Below are positions 6,696 through 61,540 of a stretch of DNA of 64,000 nucleotides, piece after piece. The notes beneath the pieces are model-generated. The model saw only the letters and a program-made list of their open reading frames with translations, had not been told where the DNA came from and searched no databases. Origin of the DNA: Amyelois transitella (lineage: Eukaryota > Arthropoda > Insecta > Lepidoptera > Pyralidae); NCBI RefSeq assembly GCF_032362555.1, contig NC_083534.1, forward strand, positions 4,268,001 through 4,332,000, written 5' to 3'. The stretch's first letter is position 1, and each line of letters starts with the position of its first letter. The position numbers were made by a program, and so were the translations under genes.

Positions 6696-9600
6696 TCAAT
6701 TAATACTAACGTGTCTATGCGTCTGCGCAGGTTGACCGCTCATGTTGTTCCCGGTGTAGGCCACACACTTGACCTGCCACTCGCCCAGCTGCTCGTTCCA
6801 GTGCACGTACTGCTCGATCAGCGCCTGCGCAACGTGAAAGAGCAATGTTAATTTTATAATGACGAAAGAACAAGCCGTGTGGTTCCCGGCACCAATACAA
6901 AAAATAATAGAACCACTCCATTTCTTTCCCATGGATGTCGTAAAAGGCGACTAAGGGATAGGCTCACAAACTTGGGATTCTTTTTTAGGCGATGGGCTAG
7001 CAACCTGTCACTATTCGAATCTCAATTCTATAATTAAGCCAAAAAGCTGAACGTGGCCATTCAGTCTTTTCCAGACTGTTGGCTCTGTCTACCCCGCAAG
7101 GGATATAGACGTGACCCTATGTGTGTATGTACGAAAGGACAAACTATAGCGCCATTTTAGAGCCTCTGTGGCGCAGCGGTAGTGCGCTTGTCTGTGACAT
7201 CGGAGGTTCTGGGTTGGAATCCCGCCCAGAGCATGATGGGATAGTTTGACATCGCCATAATTGTGTGGGACTCAGTGGGACAGACAGAAGCCTCAAAACA
7301 CAGCATTATTCTTCATTAATCTTACTTGATACGCCTTAGTTTTTTACGAGTCCAAGACTTTATCAAATAATATGATTGAAACATAGGCTAACAAACTTGG
7401 GGTTCTTTTTAGGCGATGGGCTAGCAACCTGTCACTATTTAAATCTCAATTCTATCATTAAGCCAAACAGCTGAACATGGCCTATCAGTCTTTACAAGAC
7501 TGTTGGCTCTGTCTACCCCGCAAGGGATAAAGACATGATTATATGTATGTATGTATTGTACACAATTTTGAAAATAATTCTATTCTCTGGTGGAACCCAG
7601 TATCATACCTGATACTCCTTAGGTTACACGTTAAAGTCACTTTATCGACAGTTATCGACGGAGTCAGTGTCGCTGACGCAGCGCGGTGTGCGCTAGTTAG
7701 TTACATAGCCGTCACACAGATGTCGCTACGTTACACGATAAAGTCACTTTATCGACAGTTATCGACGGAGTCACTGTCGCTGACGCAACGCGGTGTGCGC
7801 TAGTTAGTTACAAAGCCGTCACACAGATGTCGCTACGTTACACGATAAAGTCACTTTATCGACAGTTATCGACGGAGTCACTGTCGCTGACGCAATGCGG
7901 TAGTTACCTGATACTTCTTAGGTATTTACCAGTCCAACATTTTATCACATAATATAATTGAGTTTTGGGATAGGCAGACGTCACAACAGTTGCTTTGGAA
8001 ACTTAACAAGGATAAAATTCAAAAAATTCAAAATTCAAAATTTTTTATTCATTATTATAGGATATTATTATATCGCTTAATAATTGTCGTATGGTTTAAC
8101 AACTTGGTTGACGTCAAATAAATTACTTAAAAACTAAGTTTACTGCCGCTTCCAAGGCGTCAGTGCAGAAGAAGCGGTAACAAACTGCACTGCAGCATTT
8201 TCATCAACAACGTCAACTTCACAATATTAAATTATACTTAGAATAGAATGTGGACGGGAGAATACATTGTTCACGGGAGATTTATATATTTATGAGATTT
8301 AATATTGAAAAAAGAAAAAAAAATATATATATATATTATGGATTGCCAATTTTAAAAGATTTATGTACAGAGTGTACTGAAATTTTGATTTAAGTTAAAA
8401 TTAAACTACAATTAATTACGAGGTTCCTGTGCCAAGCTCGAGCCAGATGTTTTTATCATTAAGGTAATCATCAGTCCTATAATAAGCCTTCCCACAAAGT
8501 ACTTTCTTTACATACTCTTTGAATTTTCGGTTGGGCATATCAAGAACAGACTCCGGCAACCTATTATAAAATCGTATACAGTTCCCCATAAATGATTTAC
8601 TGACTTTGCTAAGCCTATGAAACGGCATGACTAATTTATGTTTATTACGTAAATTTCTATCAGTTGTGGCACTAACTTTTTGAAAAAAAGAGGTATTTTT
8701 CCTAACATACATTATAAGATCAAAAATGTACTGGGACGCTACTGTAGGTATGTTTATTTTCTTAAAGAGTTGTCTTAACGAGTCTCTTGGTCCTAAGCCG
8801 TAAATTGCGCGAACGGCCCTTTTCTGAATTATAAAAATAGTTTGTATATCAGCCGCGCCACCCCATAAAAGTAAACCATAAGATAACAAGCTATGAAAAT
8901 AGCTAAAATAAACAAGCCTAGCTGTAGCTACATCTGTCAATTGTCGGATCCTCCTAACAGCATAAGCGGCAGAGCTAAGTCTATTGGATAGTTTAGAAAT
9001 ATGAGCACCCCACTGTAGCTTTGCATCAATTATAATTCCTAAAAACTTTGTATTTTCAACAAATTCTAATTTCTGGCCTTCCAGTGTTATGTCAGTATTG
9101 GCCTGCCTTACGTTTGGAAGGGTAAATTTAATGCATTGGGTCTTATTAGCATTTAAAAGAAGATTGTTGGTTGAGAACCAGATAGATATGGCCGACAGTA
9201 TATTATTAACCGAACTTACATTTTCGCTATGGCGATCTAATTTAAATATTTTTTTTATATAGATAGATGACTAGTTTTAAACATATTTAGCTTTAATCTT
9301 GATTATGATGAAACCAAGTATCATACGATTTGACTGCGCCACAGAGGCCGTCATTCATAGATTGACGGCCTCTGTGGCGCAGCGGTAGTACGCTTGCCTG
9401 TGACACCGGGGGTCCCGGGTTCGAATCCCGGCCAGGGCATGATGAGAAAAGAACTTTTTCTGATTGGCCTGGGTCTTGGATGTTTATCTATATAAGTATT
9501 TATTATAAAATATAGTATCGTTGAGTTAGTATCTCGTAACACAAGTGTCAAACTTACTTCGAGGCTAACTCAATCTGTGTAATTTGTCCCGTATATATTT

Positions 9601-12600: not shown

Positions 12601-15600
12601 ACCGTGTGGTTCCCGGCACCATTACAAAAAAGACTAGGACCACTCCATCTCTTTCACATGGATGTCGTAAAAGGCGACTAAGGGATGGGCTTACATACTT
12701 GGGATTCTTTTTTAAGGCGATGTGCTAGCACCCTGTCACTATTTGAATCTCAATTCTATCAATAAGAAAAACAGCTGACCGTGGCCGATCAGTCTTTTCA
12801 AGACTGTTGGCTCTGTCTACTCCACAAGGGATATAGACGTGATCATATGTATGTATGCATCATGCCCTGGCCGGGATTCGAGCCCGGGTTAAGGATTTTA
12901 TAAATAATATTATATATGTATATATATAAATATTAATAATATATATTTTTAATTATTTCAATTCAATATAAACGTGCATACCGTTGGTAGTTTCCTCCAG
13001 CTGTTTTTTGAGTTGATCGATCTCTTGCTGGAACCTGTAAACGAATAAATAATATCAAATGCTCATTCATTCATTCATATAACAACACTAGCTGTGCCCG
13101 CGACTTCATCCGCGTGGAATAGTTATTTTGGGCATCATTGAAGCCCTCAAGGATGAATAATTCTTCCTGTTTTTTTTTCATATATTCCATTATTCCTTGT
13201 CTCTTAAAAGTTGCAGCGTGATGTTATATAGCCTAAAGCTTTCCTCGATAAATTGTCTATTCAACGCATAAAGAATTTTTCAATTCGATCCAGTAGTTCC
13301 TGTGATTAGCGCGTTCAAACAAACAAACAAACAAACATGTATAAGCTTATAAATTTGGGATTCTTCATTAAGGCGATGGGCTAGCAACCTATCACTATTT
13401 GAATCTCAATTCTATCATCAACCCAAACAGCTGAACGTGGCCATTCAGTCTTTTCAAGACTGTTGGCTTTGTCTACCCTGCAAGGGATATGGACGTGACC
13501 ATATGTATGTATGTATGTACATATGTATGTAATGTATGTATGTATGTATGTATGTTTCCCGGGACACTAAGTTCTTCTATAAAAACAGTCACTCACCTGG
13601 TGAGAAGCGCTTCTTGACCCCATATGTATGTATGTACGTATGTATATATGTATGTAATGTATGTATGTATGTCTGGTTGTAATGTATGTATGTATTTAAT
13701 GTATGTATGTATGTATGTACGTATGTATATATGTATGTAATGTATGTATGTATGTATGTACGTGTGCCGGGACACTAAGTTCTTCTATAAGCCACTCACC
13801 TGGTGAGAAGCGCGTCTTGACCATATGTATGTAATGTATATATGTATGTAATGTATGTAATGTATGTATGTACATATATATGTATGTAATGTATGTATGT
13901 ATGTATGTACATATATATGTATGTAATGTATGTATGTATGTATGTACGTGTGCCGGGACACTCAGTTCTTCTATAAGCCACTCACCTGGTGAGAAGCGCG
14001 TCTTGACCATATGTATGTAATGTATATATGTATGTAATGTATGTATGTATGTAATGTATGTAATGTATGTATGTACATATATATGTATGTAATGTATGTA
14101 TGTATGTACGTATGTAATGTATGTAATGAATGTATGTATGTATTTAATGTAATGTATGTATGTATGTACGTTTGCCGGGACTTTCTTCTATAAAAACAGC
14201 CACTCACCTTGTGAGAAGCGCGTCTCCCGGCTCGGTGTTCACGTGCGTCTTGTTCTCAATGTTCTTCGCCCTGTTCGCGTAGCGCAAAGTGCTGATTGTC
14301 TCGACATAATTGCATTCAGCCGGTCCTATTGTCGCTATCTGTGAATTAATTTACTTTATGAATAATCATACATACATACGTATAATCACGTCTATATCCC
14401 TTGCGGGTTAGACAGAGCCAACGGTCTTGAAAAGACGGATGGGCCGCGTTCAGCACTGTTTGGCTTAACGATAGCAATGAGATTGAAATAGTGACTGGTT
14501 GCTAGCCCATCGCCTGAAAGAAGAATCCCAAGTTTATAAGCCTATCCCTTAGTCGCCTTTTACGACATTCATGGTAAAGAGATGGAGCGGTTCTATTCTT
14601 TTTTATATTGGTGCCGAAAACTACACAGCACTAACCACATAAATAAATCATAATATGCATGTGGCGTGTTATTATAATAGAACAGATTTTAATTAAAAAT
14701 TGGACACAAGATTGCCGTGTGGTTCGTGAGTTAGCGTCGATGTAAGTGCGGGTCAAATTACACCGATTGAGTTAGTCTCGAAGTAAATTCGAGACTTGTG
14801 TTACGAGATACTAACTCAGCGATACTATATTTTATAAGAGTAACTGCAAAATCTTAATCGCGTGATGAGAAACAAACTTTCTCTAATTGGCCTGGGTCTT
14901 GGATGTCTATCTATACATATAAGTATTCATTATAAAATACAGTATCATTGAGTTAGTATCTCGTAACACAAGTCTCGAACTTACTTCGAGACTAACTCAA
15001 TCTGTGTAATTTGACCCGAATATATTTATTTATTACTAGCGGCCCGCCCCGGCTTCGCACGGGTGGACATATTTTTGTGTTTTATATTTTGAAATAAATT
15101 TATTTCAAAACAAATTTATGCCTATGTCACTTTTGAAGGTCTATTCTATATCTGTGCCAAATTTTATCAAAATCGGACCAGTAGTTTTTGAGTTTATTCC
15201 ACACAAACATACAAATCTTTCCTCTTTATTATTAGTGTGGATTATCCGCTAGTAAAACACATGTCCGTCAATAGATGGCGCTAAATAAACTTTTTACCAA
15301 CAGATGTCTCTTAAAAAGAAGAAACTGACCATGACAGTCTTGGAGTTCCCCCCCAGGGAGTCCTGCAGCAGGCGGGTCAGCTTGCTGTTCCTGTAGGGGA
15401 TGTGGGTGGACTTCCCGTCCACCAGCGCGGAGATGACATTACCCAGGACCGACAGAGACTGGTTTATCTTCGTTGCCTCCTTCAAGCGCGTTCCTGACGC
15501 TTGAGTCTTGCTTTGGCGTTCGGAACCCTGTGACAAGTAAATTAATATATGTATTTACTAGCTGTGCCCGCGACTTCGTCCGCGTGGAATAGTTATTTTG

Positions 15601-18600: not shown

Positions 18601-21600
18601 AGACATCATCTGAACATGGCTATATATCAGTCTTTTTAATTCTGTTGGCTCTGTCTACCCCGCATGGGGTAAAGACGTGACTATATCTATGTATGTATCG
18701 TTGAGCTAGTATCTCGTAACACAAGTCTCGAAGTAACTTCGAGGCTAACTCCAATCTGTGTAATTTGTGCCTTATATTATACTAGCTGCGCCCGCGACTT
18801 CGTCCGCGTGGAATAGTTATTTTGGACATCATTGAAGCCCTTTCAAGGATGAATAATTGCCTCCGTTTTTTTTTTCACATATTCCATTATTTCTTTGCTT
18901 CTTATACTTGCAGCGTATTGTATATATGCTAAAGCCTTCCTCGATAAATGGTCTATTCAACGCAAAAATATTTTTTTAATTCCAACTAGTAGTTCCTGAG
19001 ATTAGTGCGTTCAAACAAACAAACTCTTCAGCTTTATAATATTAGTATAGATTATAATATTAGTATAGATTTGTTTTATATTCCTTACATAACGATACAT
19101 AATCTTTATTAATTATCTATACAGATTATTATATTAATAGATATGTAATATTAATAAATTAATGGCTTCGCTCCAGTGGAAAATTCTAACGTAACTCCCG
19201 AATGTCATGTATCCTATATATGTACCAAATTTCTTGAAAATCAGTCCGTCGGGTCATGAGCATATTCGTTACAAACATACAAAAAATATAAATATTTTCA
19301 TTTTATTATTAACGTTCATTATATATAAATAATCTCGTGCCTTATTGAACAAAAAAAAAACAAGCACAGTACTGCCAACATTTAAGAAATATTCGCGCCC
19401 GTTTCCGTGAGGTTGGCATTCCCGGCTGGGCGGGTGCGATCAATAGCTGACGCTTCGCGCATTGAGGGCATGACCTACTTAGAAGAACCATTGGATTAAC
19501 TTGCTTTGTTCGTGAAACGATGCAAATTAGAGATGCTTGTGGCATATTAACATCATTGAAAATAAAAAACATTTAATATTTTATATTGTGCAGTGTGGTT
19601 CCCGGCACAAATACTTAGAAAAAAAGAATAGGACCACTCCATCTCTCTCCCATGGATGTCGTAAAAGGCGACTAAGGGCTAGGCTTATAAACTTGGGATT
19701 CTTCTTTTAGGCGATGGGCTAGCAACCTGTCACTGTTTGAATCTCAATTCTATCTTGAAGCCAAATAGCTGAGCGTGGCCTATCAGTCTTTACAAGACTG
19801 TTGGCTCTGGCTGTCAAGGGATATAGACGTGATAATATGTATGTTTGTATATTTTATACATACATACATAAAATCACGCCTTTTTCCCGGAGGGGAGACT
19901 ACATCTTACCACTTGCCACGATCTCTGCACACTTCCTTCGCTTCATCCACATTCATAACTCTCTTCATGCAAGCTCGGCGGTTTCGGGTACAGCTGACCC
20001 TCTGCCAGGACGTCTTTAATTTGATCAAGATACGTTCGTCTAGGTCTTCCCACTCCAACCTTTCCCTCCACACTCTCTTTGTATATCTGCTTAGTCAACC
20101 TGCTTTTATTCATCCTCTCCACATGACCAAACCATCTTAACATACCCTTTTCTATTCCTGTAACTACATCTTCTTTCACATCACAACGCTCCCTTATCAC
20201 GCTGTTCCTTATCCAGTCACTCAATTTCACACCCAACATACTCCTTAACGCTCTCATGTCCACTGCATTTATTCTGCTTTCGTGCTTCTTTTGCCATACC
20301 CAACTTTCACTCCCATACATTAATGTAATATTTTACAGTTAATATTAATATTATATAGGCTTAGCTATGTCAGTAAACCTTTATGTGTAACTATATACGA
20401 TTTTATAATAAGTGCCGTGTGGTTCCCTGCACCAATAGAAAAAAGAATAGGACCACTCCATCTCTCTCCCATGGATGTCGTGAAAGGCGACTAATGGGTA
20501 GACTTATAAAATTGGGATTCTTCTTTTAGGCGATGGGATAGCAACCTATTAGTCACTATTTGAATCTCAATTCTATCTTAAAACCAAATAGCTAAACATG
20601 ACCTATCAGTATTTTCAAGACTGTTGGCTCTGTCTACCCAGCAAGGGATATAAATGTATGTATATTATTAGCTATAGCAGTAAATTATTTATGAGGAACT
20701 GTATACGACTTTATAATAGGTTGCCGGAGTCTGTTCTATCAAGAATGTTGTTTGTATATCAATACATGACCATAAATTCAAAGAGTATGTAAAGAAAGTA
20801 CTTTGTGAGACTGCTTATTATAGGACTGATGATTACCTGAATGATAAAAACATCTGGCTTGAGCTCGGCGCAGGAAACAAAGGAAAGGTATTGTAGTTTG
20901 ATTTGAACATTTATTAAAAAATCAGTACACTCACACAGTTAAATAAATTGATATTATCAATTTATTTAAATTTGACTTCCTATTTAAAATTATATTTTTT
21001 ATTATTAAGATCCTACTAATATTATATAAATGCGAAAGTTTGTGAGTATGTTAGGATGTCGGTATGGATGTTTGTTACTCTTTCACGCTAAAACTACTGA
21101 ATCGATTACGATGAAATTTGGTATGTAGGTAGTATCCCGCAGTTCCCGCGGGATTGATTCCACGCGGACGAAGTCGCGGGCGGCCTCTAATTTTGCATAA
21201 ATCATTTAATTGTAACAATGTATTCTGTCGTCCACATTTCAATTCTAAGTTTGGATAGCTGTGAAGTAAACGTTGTTGAAGAAAAGGCTGCAGTGCAGTT
21301 TGTTACCGCTTCTTCTGCACTGACGCCTTGGAAGCGGCAGTAAACTTAGTTTTGAGTAATTTTTATTGACGTCAACCAATGTTGTGAAACCAAAAGATAT
21401 GACAATTATTAAATGATGTCAAAGTGTCTCCCATATTAATTAATAAAAAAAATTAATTTTAATTTGTGGCAATTCTAATGCAATCATTCATTTACACGGA
21501 TGTAGTAATAAGCGACTAAGGAAATGGGAAAATTCATATAAACCTCTCATGGTGATCTGTTCGCAAGGAACAAACATAGTAGGTATACCTAATTTTGTTT

Positions 21601-24600
21601 GTTGCGATTTTAGGAAGTATAGTCGCAAACTTAGTTATTCACTACAGAAGATGGAAGGAGAAAAAAGGAGAGAAATATTCAGTTTAAAATACTATAAATA
21701 TTATGGAAATAAAATTAAAATATTTGACATTAAATACAATCTCTGACATTATTTCCTAACTAGTTACGTTGTTGAAGAAAATGCTGCAGTGCAGTTTGTT
21801 ACCGCTTCTTCTGCACTGACGCCTTGGAAGCGGCAGTAAACTTAGTTTTAAGTAATTTATTTGACGTCAACCAATGTTGTTAAACCAATGTTTTGACAAT
21901 TATTAAGCGATATGAAGTATCCTATAGTCTATACTAATATTATAAAGCTGAAGAGTTTGTTTTGTTTGTTTGTTTGTTTGTTTGTTTGTTTAAACGCGCT
22001 AATCTCAGAAACTACTGAACCGATTTGAATAATTCTTTCACTGTTAGATAGTCTATTTATCGAGGAAGGCTATAGGCTACATTTTATCCCGGATTTCCTA
22101 CGGGAAACGTACACAATGCAGGTGAAAGTTGAATGAGTCGGCCATCTGCGAGCTTTCCACGCGAACGCTGCGCAAACCAAGAAAGATATAGTAAAACAAT
22201 GTACTAAACATGTGAAGTACTCATTTTTTGCCACAAAAAAGTCCGCGAGAGCATATATCTATCTCTTAAGGTTTACTTACAATAACCACTTTTATGTTCA
22301 TTTTTTAAGATTATTTTTTTATTATAAACATAAGTTATTTTGAAACCAATTTTCTTTAATTCAGTATTAATCCTTATCCAAATAAATATGTTTATTACTT
22401 TCGGCTTTTCATGTAGACTAAAATTGCCATTTACAGTATATAAATCAGACGAATAGGTTTTGAGATATAGTCGTTATAAGCAATTTGCAGCGAAACATTT
22501 AATACGGCGAACCAGCGTTCTTTCTAATACGCGTGACCGCCTGACCTAAATATGATGCCCAAAATAACTATTCCACGCGGACGAAGTCGGGGGCACAGCT
22601 AGTAATGAATAAAAATTTTGAATTTTGTCAGTAAATACAATCTCTGACATTATTTCCTAACTAACTGACCATGGCAACCGTTGCTATGGCGTTCATAAAT
22701 AAGGTTGCCTACATGATTATCAATCTCGATGTATACTGGTTACATAAATCCTACTAATATTGTAAATGCGAAAGTTTGTGAGTATGTCAGGATATCAGTA
22801 TGGATGTTTGCCACTTGCGATGGGCTAGCAACCTGTCACTATTTGAATCTCAACTCTATTATTGAGCCACACAGCTGAACCAAGACTGTTGGCTCAGTCT
22901 ACCCCGCAAAGGATATAGACGTAACCATATTCAGGCGGCGTCTGTGTTGCCAGTTGCCATAAAATTGAATTTACAAAAAATAAATCCCGAAAGTACCGAA
23001 AATCCTGGTTCTTTTATTACTAAAAAAATACCGGGATTTTCCCGATTCTATACACTACGGCCAATCAGTCTTTTCAAGACTGTTGGCTCAGTTTACCCCG
23101 AAAGGGATATAGACGTGACAATATGTATGTATGTACCACCCTGTATGCACAAGACAACCTGTATACACAGCGGACCTAGCGGTCGATAGCGGCGTCGTCG
23201 CGCATCGAGGTCAGACCGGTGACCTAGTTAAAAGATACCGAATAGATTCGTCAATCAATAGTAACAATAATATACCAGTAAGTTTGTTACCTCTGCACAC
23301 GTAATCTAAAAAGTAAAAATGTAAAGTAAAAATAATTTATTCACAAAAGACCATAAAAATTAAGGACGTCCTGGTAAAGGGTCTGGTCAAAAGTACCCGA
23401 AACCGCCGAACTTGCATGAAGAGAGTTATGAATGTGGATGAAGCGAAGGAAGTATGCAGAGATCGTGGCAAGTGGAAAGAGGGAGTCTCTGCCTACCGCT
23501 CCGGGAAAGAGGCGTGATTTTATGTATGTATGTATGTAAGACCATAAAAACGAAGGAAACAATAATACATACATATGATCACGTCTTTATCCCTTACGGG
23601 GTAGACAGAGCCAACAGTCTTGAAAAGACTGATAGGCCACGTTCAGCTGTTTCGCTTTGTGATATAATTGAGATTCAAATAGTGACGGGTTGCTAGCCCA
23701 TCGACTAAAAGAAGGATCCCAAGTTGATAAGCCTATCCCTTAGTCGCCTTTTACGACATCTATGGGAACGAGATGGGAGTGGTCCTATTCTTTTTTTAAT
23801 AAACAATAATATGTACAAAAATAGACATGTAGTGAAAGAGGCGTGATTTTATGTATGTATGTATAGACATATAGTATGGTGCTCCCGAAAGGGTTCCCTC
23901 AGCATAATAATGGCTTTAAAAAATATGCTACACAGCCAACGGGATATAGACGTGACCATATGTATGTATGTATGTACATTTAAATGCTCAATAATAAAAC
24001 ACACAACAAGAAGTGTACTTGTTCAAAATTTCTCCTAAGTCTAAGATCTAGTCGTATTTTTTCCCTTGATGTACATAAATGTATAAATAATAAATTAAAT
24101 TAATAACATGCATTGCATAAAATATTAAAAAGCGATAGGAATACAATTCACTACTTCAGAATTTACAGCATAAATTTGTGTAAGTAAATATATTTTACAA
24201 CATATTTTACATAGATATTTACAATTTTTACACATATATTCTTTGATGATACTGTTATTTATTTTAACAAAAAAAATTGTGAATTGTATAATTAGTTTTA
24301 TTTCAAAACAAGATTGAAAATGTCATAACTAAAGATAAAAACACAAAAAATAATCGCAATAACACTAAGAAGTATTTATACAACAGATACATTTGCAAAT
24401 ACATATTCATTAAAAAAAATATACGAGTATATAGGACATTAAGGTACAACTTCTACTTAGAAATTAACAATGATCGTGCATATATATTCATAACAATTTA
24501 CATTTAACATAAATATTATTCAAACATTTTTTTACACTACAACATATTTTACACAGATAATGTATATAAGGTACATCACACACAGCACTCCAAACTAAGG

Positions 24601-36300: not shown

Positions 36301-39300
36301 TATTTTATGTTTATGTTTTTGTTTTAATTTAGTTTCACAACGACTAAAACATTGGTCAAATGATGGCGGCAATAAACTGCCTGAGACAACATGACATTGT
36401 ATTTTATGCATTGACATTGACATTTGTATTTTATGCAATGAAGTTTGAATCTTAGGTACCTACTCATATTATTGATGAAATATTTATTTGCAAAGTTATA
36501 ACAAGCGCCATCTATCACTATGCATGTGAACAAAAAGCGACTCGCGCTTTGCTCCGTGTTTGCAGCCATTGTATTATTGTATTGTCTTTGATATACCACA
36601 GTGAACCACGACATTGTTGTTTTATTTAACTTACTAAAGACGATCCAGTTTATATATCATATTAAATTATCAACTATAAATAGGAAAGTTTGTGAGTATG
36701 TCAATCGGAATGTCAGTATAGATGTTTGTTACTCTTTCACGCAAAAACTACTGAACCTATTACGATGAAATTTCGTATGTAGTAGCTGAACATCCAGAAT
36801 AACATATAGGCTACTTTTTATCCCGGAGTTCCCGCAGGAGCGGGACTGATAGGGTTTCCATGCGGACGAACTCCCGGGCGGCCTATAGTAAATAAATAAA
36901 TTAGTTGAAGCATAAACACAAAGCAGATATACAAGGAGAGTGGAGGGAAAGGTCGGAGTGGGAAGACCTAGACGAACGTATCTTGATCAAATTAAGGACG
37001 TCCTGGCAAAGGGTCAGGTCAAAAGTACCCGGAACCGCCGAGCTTGCATGAAGAGAGTTATGAACGTGGATGAAGCGTAGGAAATGTGCAGAGATCGTGG
37101 CAAGTGGAAAGAGGTAGTCTCTGCCTACCCCTCCGGGAAAGAGGCGTGATTTTATGTATGTATGTATGTGCCGTGTGGTTCCCGGCACCAATACAAAAAA
37201 GAATAGGACCACTCCATCTCTTTCCCATGGATGTCGTAAAAGGCGACTAAGGGATAGGCTTACAAACTTGGGATTCTTTTTTAGGCGATGGGCTAGCAAC
37301 CTCTCACTATTTGAATCTCAATTCTATCATTAAGCCAAATAGCTGAATGTGGCCATTCAGTCTTGTCAAGACTGTTGGCTCTGTCTAGCCCATAAGGTAT
37401 ATAGACGTGACCATATGTATGTATGTGTGTAAGTATGTATAAACACAAAGTACAGTCACAGACCTGTAGCCCCGAAGAACATGTTGAACAGCTCCTCAGC
37501 GGTCAGGTCGGATTCGAACCCGCGCGCGTAATACTGGTGATGCGCGTGCGCCTGTTGCACCGGCTCTTCACCGCGCAGGTCGTACTGCTTCCTCTTGTCG
37601 GGATCCGTGAGAACCGCTGCAGCGTTGCCGATTGCCTGGTAGAGTTATGAATAAATAAATATATACGGGACAAATTACACAGATTGAGTTAGCCTCGATG
37701 TAAGTTCGAAACTTGTGTTACGAGATACTAACTCAACGATACTATATTTTATAATAAATACGTATATAGATAAACATCCAAGACCCAGGCCAATCAGAGA
37801 AAGTTCGTTTCTCATCATGCCCTGGCCGGGATTCGAACCCGGGACCTCCGGTGACACAGACAAGCGCACTACCGCTGCGCCACAGAGGCCGTCGTTATGT
37901 TTTATATGACCATGGATCCTGGATTGGGTGAGTCAGGTTTTCACACGAAACGATTCCTGTCTGACCTCCGCGACCTTTGCGGGGGAACCTGACCCGTGTT
38001 GGATCGATACATATGATCACGTCTTTATCCCTTACGGGGTAGACAGAGCCAACAGTCTTGAAAAGACTGATAGGCCACATTCAGCTGTTTGGCTTAATGA
38101 TAGAATTGAGATTCAAATAGTGACGGGTTGCTAGCCCATCGCCTAAAAGAAGAATCCCAAGTTTATAAGCCTATCCTTTAGTCGCCTTTTACGACATCCA
38201 TGGGAACGAGATAAAGTGGTCCTATTCCGTTTTTTATTGGTGCCGGGAACCACACGGCACATGGAACGATCATGGTTACACATCCAGTTGCCTGAATGTG
38301 CAGTTCACATCACGAAGTTCGTGAAAGCATCGGTTATTTTACAAACTAATAGAATAGATTATTTTCAAAATTGGATAAAGGTATTTAAGCTTATTGACGT
38401 CACTACACTTAAATCTATTTATATCTACTACCGCGCATGTTTAGAAGAAGCGGCGGAACAAACTACACTGCAGCATTTCACAAATCACCCGATGTCAATT
38501 TACAAATATTTATATGTAGATCTCTTAAAACTAAATTGTGGACGAATGCACAATGTCCACAAATGTCTCGTGTCACAATGTTTGTCTCCTTACTCCTCCG
38601 AAACGGCTTTACCGATTTTAACCAAATTTTGCATGCATATTTAGTAGGTCTGAGAATATCTGTTTTTCATACCCCTTAGTGAACTTTTTTTTTTAACTAG
38701 AAATTACTTAAAAGTTATTTATATGGCAAAACAACGTTTGCCGGGACAGCTAGTAACTTCTAAAATAGTCATTGGTACGTGGCCAAGGCGGGATTCGAAC
38801 CTATGCCTCCGTACAGGTATAGTATTTACCTTAAAAGCCTCTGCAGCTCCTGGAGCATGATTCTTGTCTGGATGGAGCTGCAAAGCGAGCTTCTTATAAG
38901 ATTTCTTGATGTCAGAGTCAGTAGCCTCTTTCGTCACTCCTGCAATAATTAATGTTTAATGAATGAGTGGCAGGATCCTTTATGGCATTATGAAATATTA
39001 TAAATAATAAACCATTTAGTTATTTATTTGACGTCAACCAATGTTGTGAAACCAAAAGATACGACAAATATTAAGTGTTGTTTGAAGTGTTCCATAAAGC
39101 ATGAATTTTGAATTAGATGTCAGCAACACTAATATTTATAACTAGCTGTGCCTGCGACTTCGTCTGCGTTGAATTGTCATTTGGGCATCATTGAAGCCCT
39201 CAAGGATGAATATAATTTTGTCACAATTTTCTCACATTTTCCATTTATTTCTTTGCTCCTTATAGTTGCAGTGTGATGTTATATAGCCTTAAGCCTTCCT

Positions 39301-50000: not shown

Positions 50001-52440
50001 TTAGGGAATAGGCTTGTAGCGGGAGCGATGATTCGGCTCGACCGCCTACAAAGGGAAGATCTTCCAGGCTAGTGTTATGCCTGGGGAACCGCGGCTCCGA
50101 CGATGATGAGTCGGAGGTTGTATTTATGCTCCAATCCGTGAAATCTTAGCTATCGCGATTTAGACTCATCGCTGCTATTGGCTTAGCGCTTCATTCTCTT
50201 CGCTATGAGTGACAGATAGCGTTACCCAAGCGACAAGCTCGCTAATCTGAAAACACCTTTTCACAAAACTGAACTTTTAACACTAAACAAAATCTCACCA
50301 ATGAGCGTCCCGAGCGAGTGTCCCACGAACGTGAATCTGTCCCAACGGAAATGTCTCACGACCAACGTGACGACGTACACGAGGTCGTAAACGCTGATCA
50401 TCATGCCGGGCGGATAACTGTCCGATTTGCCATTACCTGGCAGTTCTATTGCTGTAACAATGGCACATACATACATACATATGGTCACGTCTATATCCCT
50501 TGCGGGGTAGACAGAGCCAACAGTCTTGAAAATACTGAATGGCCACGTTCAGCTGCTTGGCTTAATGATAGAATTGAGATTCGAATAGTGACAGGTTGCT
50601 AGCACGTCGCCCAAAAAAGAATCCCAAGTTTGTAAGCATATCCCTTAGTCGCCTTTTACGACAACAATTGTATAAATAAATATACATACATACATAAAAC
50701 CACGCCTATTTCCCGAATTCCAAGTTTATACGCCTATCCCTTAGTCGCTTTTTACGACATCCATGAGAAAGAGATAGAGTGGTCCTATTCTTTTTACATC
50801 TGATGCCAAGAACCACACGTCACATTCTAAACAAATGTCATAATTACTTGTTAATTCACTATTGTCATAAAAAATATTTGCACAGCTGTTGGAACTCAAA
50901 TGATATCTCTACATTGCATCGTGTCTATGATAGAAGTCATTCAAGCGATATTTGTACGAATAAACATACATACATATAATCACGTCTATATCCCTTGCGG
51001 GGTAGACAGAGCCAACAGTCTTATAAAAACTGATAGGCCACGTTCAGCTATTTAATGATAGAATTGAGATTCATATAAAATGACAGAAAAGAAGAATCCC
51101 AAGTTCATAAGCTTATCCCTTAGTCAACTTTTACGACCACCACGGGAAAGTGATGGAGTGGTCGTATTCTTTTTTTCTACTTGTGCCGGGAATTAACCTA
51201 TATAGTATGATATGATATTCACCTATATAGTAGAATTTATCGGGCAACATTGCCACTAGTGGTCTGAAGGTAGCTGCCGTGTCTCTGGAGCCGTGGACGA
51301 GGAGAACTGGAGGGTTCATGCAGTCCCCCCACGCTACCACTGTGAACGAAATGAGTTAAAGTAACGCAATTATTACATAACAATATTTACATGCCATACT
51401 TCTGGCGGAACATGCAAGATCACATATATTTCTCACAACCATTTGTGCCATGTTTTAAGTAAATAAAGAATATTTCATTTAATTTAATTTCAATAAAACC
51501 TCATTAATATTTGTAGTATGTGAAACCGACGAGATTGCACGAAGAGAGATATGAATGTGGATGAAGTGAACGAAGTGTGCGGGGATCGTGGCAAGTGGAA
51601 AGATGTAGTCTCTGCCTACCCCTCCGGGAAAGAGGCGAGGTGAGGGATTTATGTATGTATGTTTAAGATTTGTAGTCAATTCAAATAATTGTGAAGTGGA
51701 CTTTATTGCACAAAATACTATATAGGGGCAGTAAAATTAGTTTCAAATAATTCATTCAACATCACCCAATGTTGTAAAACCAAAAGATATGACAATTATT
51801 TATAGTAGGATTTTTATATAACTTTATTTCACTTTCATTTCAAAATATGTTAACTAGGTATAACAAATAAACAATAATTAAGCAAGATAATGAAGAATGA
51901 AGAATAATTAATATGGATCATATTTGGTATATATACAAAACTAGCTTCCATCCATGGATTTCCTTGCATATGAATATTGTTTGTAAATACTTTATTGTAC
52001 ATAACAAATTATTTGCTGTATGTACTAAATAATACATTTAAAAATGCACAATGGCGACCCTATAAGGGATTTATTCCAGTCAACCGTAACATTAACTCAA
52101 ATTATGTATTGTTATGTTGTAAAAAAAACCATTTAATACTATAAAGTTATAGGATATATTATAAGTAAACAGTGTGAAAAGGAACAAAAATACACAAAAC
52201 ATTTGCATTTTTTTATTTTAGTATGCTGTGTGTGACTGACGTCAATAATTTTTGCTAGCTAACAAACACTGTAATTCGATGTCAGTAAAAGATAAGGTTG
52301 GATTATAAAATGCAAATGAACAGACCAAAGTTCAATTTAACAATAACGAAAGATCCCAATTTAATATTTGAAAATTTTTACTCACCACATAACCTGCCCC
52401 ATGGTGCTTCGATAAACCATTCTTTTTCAGATATACTCAT
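47095..52440 (-). CDS. SERHL/kraken-type alpha/beta hydrolase, copy A (complete, 7 exons)
   Basis: Predicted serine hydrolase of the alpha/beta fold (substrate unknown for the family). Exons on the minus strand: 52386-52440, 51223-51339, 50299-50451, 49587-49689, 49187-49274, 48058-48155 and 47095-47404; phase is kept throughout, 307 residues, stop TGA. The N-terminus APWGRL and VAWGD…PPVLLVHG (oxyanion HG at 34-35) match SERHL. AIELPGNGKS follows, then the nucleophile elbow GHSLG with Ser103, and the catalytic His276 in GGHDVH. Exon 3 (153), exon 2 (117) and exon 6 (98) have exactly the same lengths as those of its divergent neighbour at 55462-59174. Unlike that neighbour, it has an intron (49275-49586) inside the helical-cap region, mostly filled by a SINE-T copy. 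A MITE-like element begins 28 bases after the stop, so the 3' untranslated region is probably element-derived. Confidence 0.9.
47478..47615. repeat. T-rich minisatellite
   Basis: Repeated TTTCATTTTTTAATTTTCAT units in SERHL-A intron 6. Confidence 0.75.
47660..47872 (+). repeat. SINE-T, head lost
   Basis: SERHL-A intron 6, followed at once by a LINE-A tail. Confidence 0.7.
47890..48028 (+). mobile_element. LINE-A 3' tail
   Basis: The tail ends 30 bases from the donor of SERHL-A exon 6 (exon end 48058). Confidence 0.7.
48373..48755 (+). mobile_element. LINE-C 3' end split by a LINE-A tail
   Basis: LINE-C at 48373-48410 and 48607-48755 is interrupted by a LINE-A tail (about 48411-48606); the junctions read AAAAGTA/GTC and TTTGAGTACCTG, so GTA is the visible flank. 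SERHL-A intron 5. Confidence 0.8.
48780..49163. mobile_element. Hel-3 / Hel-1 chimera
   Basis: A Hel-3 copy (minus, ACTAGCTGGTCCCGGCAAACG) is fused at about 48970 to a Hel-1 3' part (plus), so both outer ends are 3' CTAG ends. Confidence 0.6.
49327..49555 (+). repeat. SINE-T filling the extra intron of SERHL-A
   Basis: Intron 4 of SERHL-A is 49275-49586 (312 bases); this copy takes about 230 of them, next to a 20-base SINE-G 3' scrap at 49308-49326. Confidence 0.8.
49734..49904 (+). repeat. SINE-T head joined to a Hel-1 3' half
   Basis: SINE-T (49734-49815, internally deleted) is fused to the Hel-1 3' end, 49805-49904, ending CACAGCTAGT. Confidence 0.65.
50463..50824 (-). repeat. two SINE-T pieces around a LINE-C scrap
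   Basis: 50463-50672 and 50715-50824 with CATACATACATAAAACCACG between; adjacent to the SERHL-A exon 3 acceptor. Confidence 0.65.
50963..51192 (-). repeat. SINE-T, near full length
   Basis: SERHL-A intron 2, 30 bases from the exon 2 donor. Confidence 0.7.
51515..51665 (+). mobile_element. LINE-C 3' end
   Basis: The final motif is altered (GGCGAGGTGAGGGATTTATGTATG). SERHL-A intron 1. Confidence 0.65.
51690..51830 (+). mobile_element. LINE-A-like decayed 3' tail
   Basis: It retains the GGCAGTAAAATTAG and CATCACCCAATGTTG blocks in mutated form, in SERHL-A intron 1. Confidence 0.5.
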
Positions 52441-60847: not shown

Positions 60848-61025
60848 TACATACATACATAAAATCATGCCTCTTTCCCGGAGGGGTATGCAGATACTAC
60901 CTCTTTCCACTGGCCACGATCTCTGCCTACTTCCTTCGCTTCATCCACATTCATAACTCTCTTCGTGCAAGCTCGGCAGTTTCGGGTACTTTTGACCTGA
61001 CCCTTTACCAGGACGTCCTTAATTT
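60848..61025 (-). mobile_element. LINE-C 3' end
   Basis: Inverted tail (CATA)3 then AAAATCATGCCTCTTTCCCG; in the spacer before the vezatin-like exons. Confidence 0.7.
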
Positions 61026-61262
61026 TTTTATTCCAGATGGCGCTATATCTGAAGCAGGACTTCTCTCCGCCTGTACTCTCTCGGAGATGGATTGCCATGC
61101 AGTTTAGACCGAATATGGTGACAATACATATAATTACATTAGTTACAATACTAACCAATGCTCTCAGGAGTCGCTTCGTGTAAAAACCTGACTCTCCCAA
61201 TAGATAATGTATCTAGCATTAAGTCAGCCAATTGTATTTTGTACAATGAAGTTTAAATATTG

Positions 61263-61540
61263 TGCCGTGTGGTTCCCGGCACCAATACAAAAAAATAATA
61301 AGACCACTCCAAATCTTTCCCATGGATGTCGTTAAAGGCGACTAAGGGATAAGCTTACAAACTTGGGATTCTTTTTAAGGTGATGGGTTACCAACCTGTC
61401 AATATTTGAATCTCATTTCTATCTTAAAGCCAAATAGCTGAATGTGGCCTATCAATCTTTAAAAGACTGTTGGCTCTGTCTACCCCGCAAGGGATATAGA
61501 CGTGATTATATGTATATATGTATGTATGTATGTATGTTAC
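61263..61540 (+). repeat. SINE-T, full length
   Basis: Tail of about seven ATGT units, the longest clean tail here. Confidence 0.8.

Follow-up and report, generated by a model that had tools for sequence, protein, structure and literature searches.

Can the signal by which a LINE recognizes its own RNA lie within the last codons of the protein that does the recognizing? The question arises from positions 23460 to 23538 (+) of the window (the whole 64,000-nucleotide stretch of DNA that was analyzed). The genome, which spans 327 Mb in 33 contigs, is by its repeats most likely that of a butterfly or moth. Two families crowd the window: SINE-T, about 250 nt long before its tail, and LINE-C, which is mostly 5' truncated here and of which the genome holds many copies. 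The first-pass annotation claimed that the two families share their 3' end, that LINE-C codes for protein in this stretch, and that only four bases lie between its stop codon and the tail. We conclude that the 3' end of SINE-T probably comes from the LINE-C lineage, and that the LINE-C protein would recognize a hairpin in its own last codons and would move SINE-T.

A LINE-C insertion and its neighbors

The site is the 3' end of a LINE-C insertion (23360-23537, +) flanked on both sides by a 13-bp target-site duplication, AAGACCATAAAAA. The argument draws on the following features of the window.

23360..23537 (+), LINE-C copy, a 5'-truncated insertion of 178 bp with the last ~50 codons, the stop, and the (ATGT)n tail (flanking duplication and frame)
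23481..23521 (+), stretch common to LINE-C and SINE-T, without tail (consensus alignment, profile boundaries)
23491..23513 (+), predicted RNA hairpin, consensus GCCU-AC-CCC-UCC-GGG-AAAG-AGGC (minimum-energy fold; the copy here has one inner-stem change)
23515..23517 (+), TGA stop codon of the LINE-C copy (retained by 12 of the 15 copies in the window)
23522..23537 (+), (ATGT)n tail of the LINE-C copy, directly 3' of TTTT (sequence)
23565..23800 (-), SINE-T copy that faces the LINE-C copy tail to tail (blastn match; alignment row S_23559_23678)
23834..23864 (+), very short insertion of LINE-C (17 nt and the tail), with imperfect repeats ATAGACATGTAG / ATAGACATATAG around it (sequence, anchor scan)
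20000..20320 (-), C-terminal part of LINE-C (107 aa) that served as query; the end of this copy is near 19856
36916..37149 (+), longer LINE-C copy whose frame continues to SGKEA*, with one in-frame stop (frame reading)
61262..61511 (+), full-length example of SINE-T, 250 nt before the tail

SINE-T and LINE-C share a 3' end outside the tail

Window copies were assigned to the family whose profile scored better (17 LINE, 54 SINE); after two LINE and four SINE copies whose alignments ended before the 3' end were dropped, consensus sequences were built from 15 LINE-C and 50 SINE-T copies. LINE-C ends in GGTAGTCTCTGCCTACCCCTCCGGGAAAGAGGCGTGATTTT-(ATGT)n and SINE-T in TGTTGGCTCTGTCTACCCCGCAAGGGATATAGACGTGATTAT-(ATGT)n, and many SINE-T copies end in GTGACCAT instead. 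Both families thus finish in (ATGT)n, which can be aligned by itself, and this is the point in favor of chance or convergence at a simple-repeat end. The similarity persists without the tail, however: the two ends are alike over about 41 nt, with 31 of 42 columns identical and one gap. The tail-less consensus alignment scores 21, compared with means of 6.2 to 7.9 and a largest value of 19 for shuffled sequences (three sets of 10,000 shuffles), and none of 10,000 shuffles is as good at any of the three lengths tried (longest pieces, 105 nt for the LINE and 104 nt). The annotation had named chance-level similarity outside the tail as the outcome that would speak against it; what we found lies beyond chance, and the chance reading is refuted, with next to no probability left to it. 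Among the matches listed, the LINE-C profile (112 positions) matches SINE-T copies from positions 45 to 71, most often 65, to its end, and the SINE profile matches LINE copies mostly over its last 45 to 53 positions, with the earliest start at 38.

The loop of the SINE-T end has one extra base, with which the LINE stop falls out of frame, and differences from LINE-C are spread over the three codon positions (3/12, 3/12, and 2/11), with positions 1 and 2 not avoided. SINE-T therefore keeps this end as RNA or DNA, not as protein. Judged from the sequences, the ends of SINE-T and LINE-C are related.

Coding role of the shared stretch in LINE-C

In the LINE-C consensus, the shared stretch comprises the last 11 to 12 codons, TGA, and TTTT, and the (ATGT)n follows. 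The end string that the annotation read as YPSGKEA is that of the family consensus, found exactly in the window at 37125, 44135, and 42395; the copy at 23460-23538 itself has one change (CTACCG) and reads YRSGKEA. The coding claim holds well beyond the window. Of 30 genome LINE loci, 16 lie on the plus strand and 14 on the minus strand. We read the ends of the 16 plus-strand loci, and in 15 of them the open frame runs to YPSGKEA (14 loci) or YPFGKEA (1 locus) and then TGA; the sixteenth (L023) is frameshifted. The four bases TTTT alone separate the stop from the (ATGT)n, as claimed, in the consensus and in genome copies.

A protein search of the whole genome gave 9,607 first-look candidates and 150 scored matches, at least 34 of which are listed with an open frame of 1,059 or 1,061 aa. 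The intact copy L050:496-3678 is open over 1,061 codons (1,036 aa from the first Met); its protein carries an RVT_1 reverse transcriptase domain (E = 3.8e-41) and matches two endonuclease families (5.1e-06 and 2.6e-04), both just short of the curated cut-offs. Given these intact genome copies and the 15 of 16 loci with an open frame up to the stop, the coding claim is independent of decayed fragments. LINE-C fits an RTE-type LINE in its single frame (endonuclease plus reverse transcriptase) and in its very short, simple-repeat 3' untranslated region (UTR), and the best solved-structure relatives of its reverse transcriptase are L1 ORF2 and R2 chains. The 107-aa C-terminal piece had no meaningful match in Pfam or PDB, and protein scans of viral-contig and genome-contig collections confirmed no relatives outside the genome; the single pattern-scan match in the viral-contig collection lies on a GC-rich contig and looks like chance.

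A predicted hairpin in the last codons

The shared stretch of LINE-C is predicted to fold into a hairpin, and the short SINE-T end folds as GUCUA-C-CCC-GCAA-GGG-AUA-UAGAC. The outer stem is the same in the folds of LINE-C, SINE-T, and LINE-C2 (a diverged LINE family described below), and the inner stem is of the CCC/GGG type; the fifth outer pair of the SINE-T hairpin is missing from LINE-C. Pairs were counted in 11 LINE and 30 SINE ends with unbroken spacing, picked from 61 anchor matches. On these 41 ends, the named structure is paired in 88.9% of cells, compared with 9.6 to 50% for versions slid along the sequence. At the second outer pair, 11 of 11 LINE ends have C-G and 29 of 30 SINE ends have U-A. 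This single compensatory pair represents one evolutionary event, and placing the same number of changes at random does as well in 7 to 10% of trials (0.07-0.10).

Other measures are mixed. The covariation score and the number of cells changed on both sides exceed 500 of 500 shuffles over the 41 ends, a result that relatedness alone can produce, but neither the pairs changed on both sides nor the pair types are more numerous than in shuffles, of which 306 and 409 out of 500, respectively, reach equally high counts. Since copies decay neutrally after insertion, covariation within copies says little, and the argument is carried by differences between families. The fold energies of the ends are ordinary and weakly low: for short ends, z is -1.7 for SINE-T (36 of 500 shuffles as low or lower) and -1.0 for LINE-C (78 of 500), and for 48-nt ends it is -0.8 (96 of 500) and +0.4 (319 of 500), respectively. 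RNAalifold retains the outer stem and one inner pair across the 41 copies (-2.3 kcal/mol), and the best fold of the 105-nt LINE piece is without this hairpin.

These ordinary energies are among the points that favor another reading, in which the shared end does mark a partnership and the protein recognizes a linear terminus (CGTGATNNN plus (ATGT)n) and not a hairpin, the coding part being inherited baggage. In both families, conservation is among the highest in the block AG(R)CGTGA, and very short LINE-C and SINE-T insertions indicate that little upstream sequence needs copying. Baggage should drift in SINE-T, however, and there the paired letters are mostly kept and the loop and bulge letters differ.

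A role of the hairpin as a reverse transcriptase stop was suggested by several very short window copies or junctions that start at the GGG arm (23834, 23940, and 50714). The five short genome copies listed start elsewhere (e.g., CCCCGC, CTACCCC, and GTCTCTG), so a pile-up at such a stop is not supported.

Comparison with a diverged LINE family

LINE-C2 is a diverged LINE family whose protein is 63 to 68% identical to that of LINE-C over the less decayed C-terminal matches. Four of its ends were available.

L006:1706-2040 (-), two LINE-C2 ends in a row
L049:353-633 (+), LINE-C2 end
L046:1501-1665 (-), LINE-C2 end

The comparison thus draws on three loci with four decayed ends between them. The reference is their majority sequence, used only at sites with two agreeing LINE-C2 copies and with the second L006 end in part. 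LINE-C2 ends by majority in YPNGKQA* and has its own short 3' UTR. Third codon positions are identical between LINE-C and LINE-C2 at 11 of 12 sites in the last 12 codons and at 25 of 44 sites upstream (one-sided Fisher P = 0.024), whereas codon positions 1 and 2 show no difference between the two regions (20/24 in the last codons versus 71/89 upstream). In the last 11 codons, two codons change from LINE-C to LINE-C2: TCC becomes AAT, in the loop, and GAG becomes CAG, at an unpaired base. Within the 23-nt hairpin, all four differences are unpaired, for which P = 0.014 if sites are independent, an assumption violated by three of the four sitting in one codon. In the best LINE-C2 fold, the inner stem is displaced by one base.

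This pattern is what a hairpin constraint inside coding sequence would predict, and not what coding constraint alone would. Conserved third positions together with unpaired hairpin differences suggest that the recognized RNA element probably lies inside the coding sequence. Recognition of a linear terminus leaves the unusual third-position conservation in the last LINE codons unexplained, and we consider that reading unlikely.

Mobility and age of the two families

SINE-T has retroposed with target-site duplications, as full-length copies compared with mismatched controls indicate: duplications score 8 or more in 6 of 19 copies versus 20 of 356 controls, and 10 or more in 4 of 19 versus 2 of 356. 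One of the six (37168) is built from tail repeats, and among the four best, two are doubtful, one being a TAAA-type repeat and the other lying 36 nt beyond the SINE end. SINE-T copies are at least 2.3% diverged, with a median of 7.6% (70 copies, each of at least 180 nt). LINE-C divergence is below 1% in 23 of 46 copies, most of which were found by a search for near matches, and hence LINE-C is recent; the seven window copies measured are 4.2 to 11.9% diverged. SINE-T may be less active now, and its mobilization at present is doubtful.

These ages bear on whether LINE-C is the partner or a relative of the partner. If the SINE-T tail came from another, older LINE of the same lineage, the youngest SINE-T copies could well be 2.3% diverged while LINE-C copies below 1% exist; the SINE-T and LINE-C tails do differ at 11 of 42 columns, and at least one further LINE family has the same type of end. 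We looked at 103 motif-intact ends in 292 kb, of which 49 have LINE-type bodies, 52 have SINE-type bodies, and 2 are ties with the LINE loop. The four-base loop of the SINE type occurs in none of the 49 LINE-type bodies, a small sample chosen in part by way of LINE-C, and the LINE-C2 loop differs as well (AAT). We think an older source, with LINE-C a relative and not the partner, rather less probable than a partnership with LINE-C.

No clear swap of a SINE body with a LINE tail, or the reverse, was seen among the 103 ends. One chimera falls outside that scan because its 5' arm is missing.

50680..50823 (-), chimera in which a SINE-T head (~109 nt) is followed by the final 22 nt of LINE-C, with an ATGT tail (the head aligns to the SINE consensus)

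Over its 22 tail positions, the chimera has 2 mismatches to LINE-C and 4 to SINE-T, and its candidate duplication is imperfect (ATTTGTTTAGA / ATTTATTTATA). It could reflect a single reverse transcriptase that started on LINE-C RNA and switched to SINE-T RNA, for which this copy is suggestive only.

A model for recognition of the shared end

The explanation that we favor is that SINE-T is a nonautonomous retroposon whose 3' end would be derived from a member of the LINE-C lineage. The protein of LINE-C, with its endonuclease and reverse transcriptase, would recognize an RNA end in which a small hairpin precedes GUGAUNNN(AUGU)n, and target-primed reverse transcription would start at that end on LINE-C RNA and SINE-T RNA alike. 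Because only four bases separate the stop from the tail, the putative recognized hairpin falls in the last codons (GCC TAC CCC nnn GGG AAA nAG GCG TGA). These codons would then be under two constraints, one on protein and one on RNA, of which SINE-T would retain the RNA constraint only. From the shared ends, the target-site duplications, the hairpin-like substitution pattern, and the third-position conservation, which fit together, we infer recognition of the stringent type, with the LINE-C protein as the likely agent of SINE-T mobilization. That the enzyme's cis-acting hairpin for template choice may be written wholly inside its own last codons is a claim for which we see the balance as even.

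If the model is correct, the LINE could not freely alter its recognition signal without altering its protein. Its escape from SINEs that copy the signal would be limited, and those SINEs would parasitize a dual-coded stretch, which would bear on why such LINEs remain open to SINE parasitism. A recognition hairpin inside an open frame is also a sharp, testable hypothesis, as synonymous recoding should tell apart what the stretch does as RNA and what it does as protein. It is the double duty of the last LINE-C codons that deserves further attention.

Relation to known SINE-LINE pairs

RTE-type SINE-LINE pairs are widespread in butterflies and moths, and the present pair may bear on how RTE elements recognize RNA with almost no 3' UTR. 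The closest published counterparts, in the parts of the literature available, are PxSE5 and PxLINE1.1 of Plutella, which have a common 43-bp 3' end (84% identity); PxLINE1.1 has an endonuclease and a reverse transcriptase, a short 3' UTR that ends in ATGT repeats, and 13-bp target-site duplications (PMC8010984). The same source describes SfSE1 of Spodoptera, a tRNA-type SINE with an (ATGT)n tail and, over 56 bp at its 3' end, 89.6% identity to the end of PxSE5 (PMC8010984). By their descriptions, PxSE5, SfSE1, and PxLINE1.1 resemble SINE-T and LINE-C in the (ATGT)n tail, a common end of similar length, and the 13-bp duplications; the sections of that article consulted make no mention of an open-frame overlap, seen here, or of a hairpin, predicted here. 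In Helicoverpa armigera, the 3'-terminal 43 bp of HaSE1 are 82% identical to the end of HaRTE1.1, an RTE-type LINE with a short 3' UTR for which a partnership with HaSE1 and HaSE3 was proposed (PMC3272025); the tail there is (TGA)n, in contrast to (ATGT)n in SINE-T and LINE-C.

A minimal 3' UTR is normal for such elements. Lepidopteran RTE elements have a single frame with simple repeats almost directly after the stop (14 bp of 3' UTR in HmRTE-e01), and many of their copies are 3' truncated with target-site duplications (PMC2887409). In LINE-C, too, simple repeats come nearly immediately after the stop; the portions of that report consulted do not treat RNA structure or SINE partners. For RTE elements generally, 3' UTRs of unusually small length are described, as are derivative SINEs (PMC1291365). 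Metulj SINEs, abundant in Heliconius, are suspected passengers of an RTE LINE with a similar tail (PMC6685494), and SINE-T is like them as a lepidopteran SINE with a tail resembling that of an RTE-like LINE. In birds, AviRTE SINEs carry pieces of the LINE 5' and 3' UTRs (PMC4844689), and insertion signatures of Bov-B and Sauria SINEs are the subject of a 2026 paper (PMC13295347).

Hairpins, too, have precedents. Stem-loop recognition was demonstrated for the zebrafish L2 LINEs ZfL2-1 and ZfL2-2 and is described for UnaL2 (PMC4176376), and hairpins with compensatory changes are described for monocot L1 and SINE ends (PMC3747384). In all of these, a LINE and a SINE share a 3' hairpin, as LINE-C and SINE-T are predicted to do; the hairpin of ZfL2, UnaL2, and monocot L1 is described in the 3' tail or 3' UTR, whereas the one predicted in LINE-C lies before the stop codon. 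Stem-loops of mammalian RTE pairs are mentioned in a human L1 paper (PMC5135761).

The literature on RTE and SINE ends at hand, mostly listings without figures or supplements, contains no statement of a recognized RTE hairpin inside an open frame, and a text search of papers for five literal end sequences found none. Since short simple-repeat 3' UTRs are normal and 43-bp shared SINE tails are published, earlier work already implies an overlap with the open frame, which published figures probably show. The overlap is therefore less unusual than the first-pass annotation supposed. The finding is correct and of a published kind, and what is new is modest evidence that an RNA hairpin is maintained in the shared stretch, within the protein code.

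Other features of the window

Two tRNA-His (GTG)-like loci, found by ARAGORN and Rfam, lie in the window at 9368-9439 (+) and 37818-37889 (-), with modest Rfam scores of 29.4 and 39.5 bits; neither of the two is inside a listed SINE-T copy. A 284-aa open frame at 8416-9270 (-), for which a Pfam search found no family, resembles what we take to be a fragment of another LINE reverse transcriptase.

Two LINE-C insertions, 23360-23537 (+) and 60848-61022 (-), start at the same LINE position (TTAAGGACGTCCTGG) and have different target-site duplications. Both adjoin A-runs, and microhomology at the 5' junction may be involved. SINE-T copies also lie within or right beside LINE-C (ATGT)n tails at 37048-37416, 19588-19967, and 23360-23800, tail to tail in two of the three cases. 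A long array of ATGT-like repeats (13530-14190), whose minus strand reads as a low-complexity open frame, adjoins the SINE-T end at 13399-13518.
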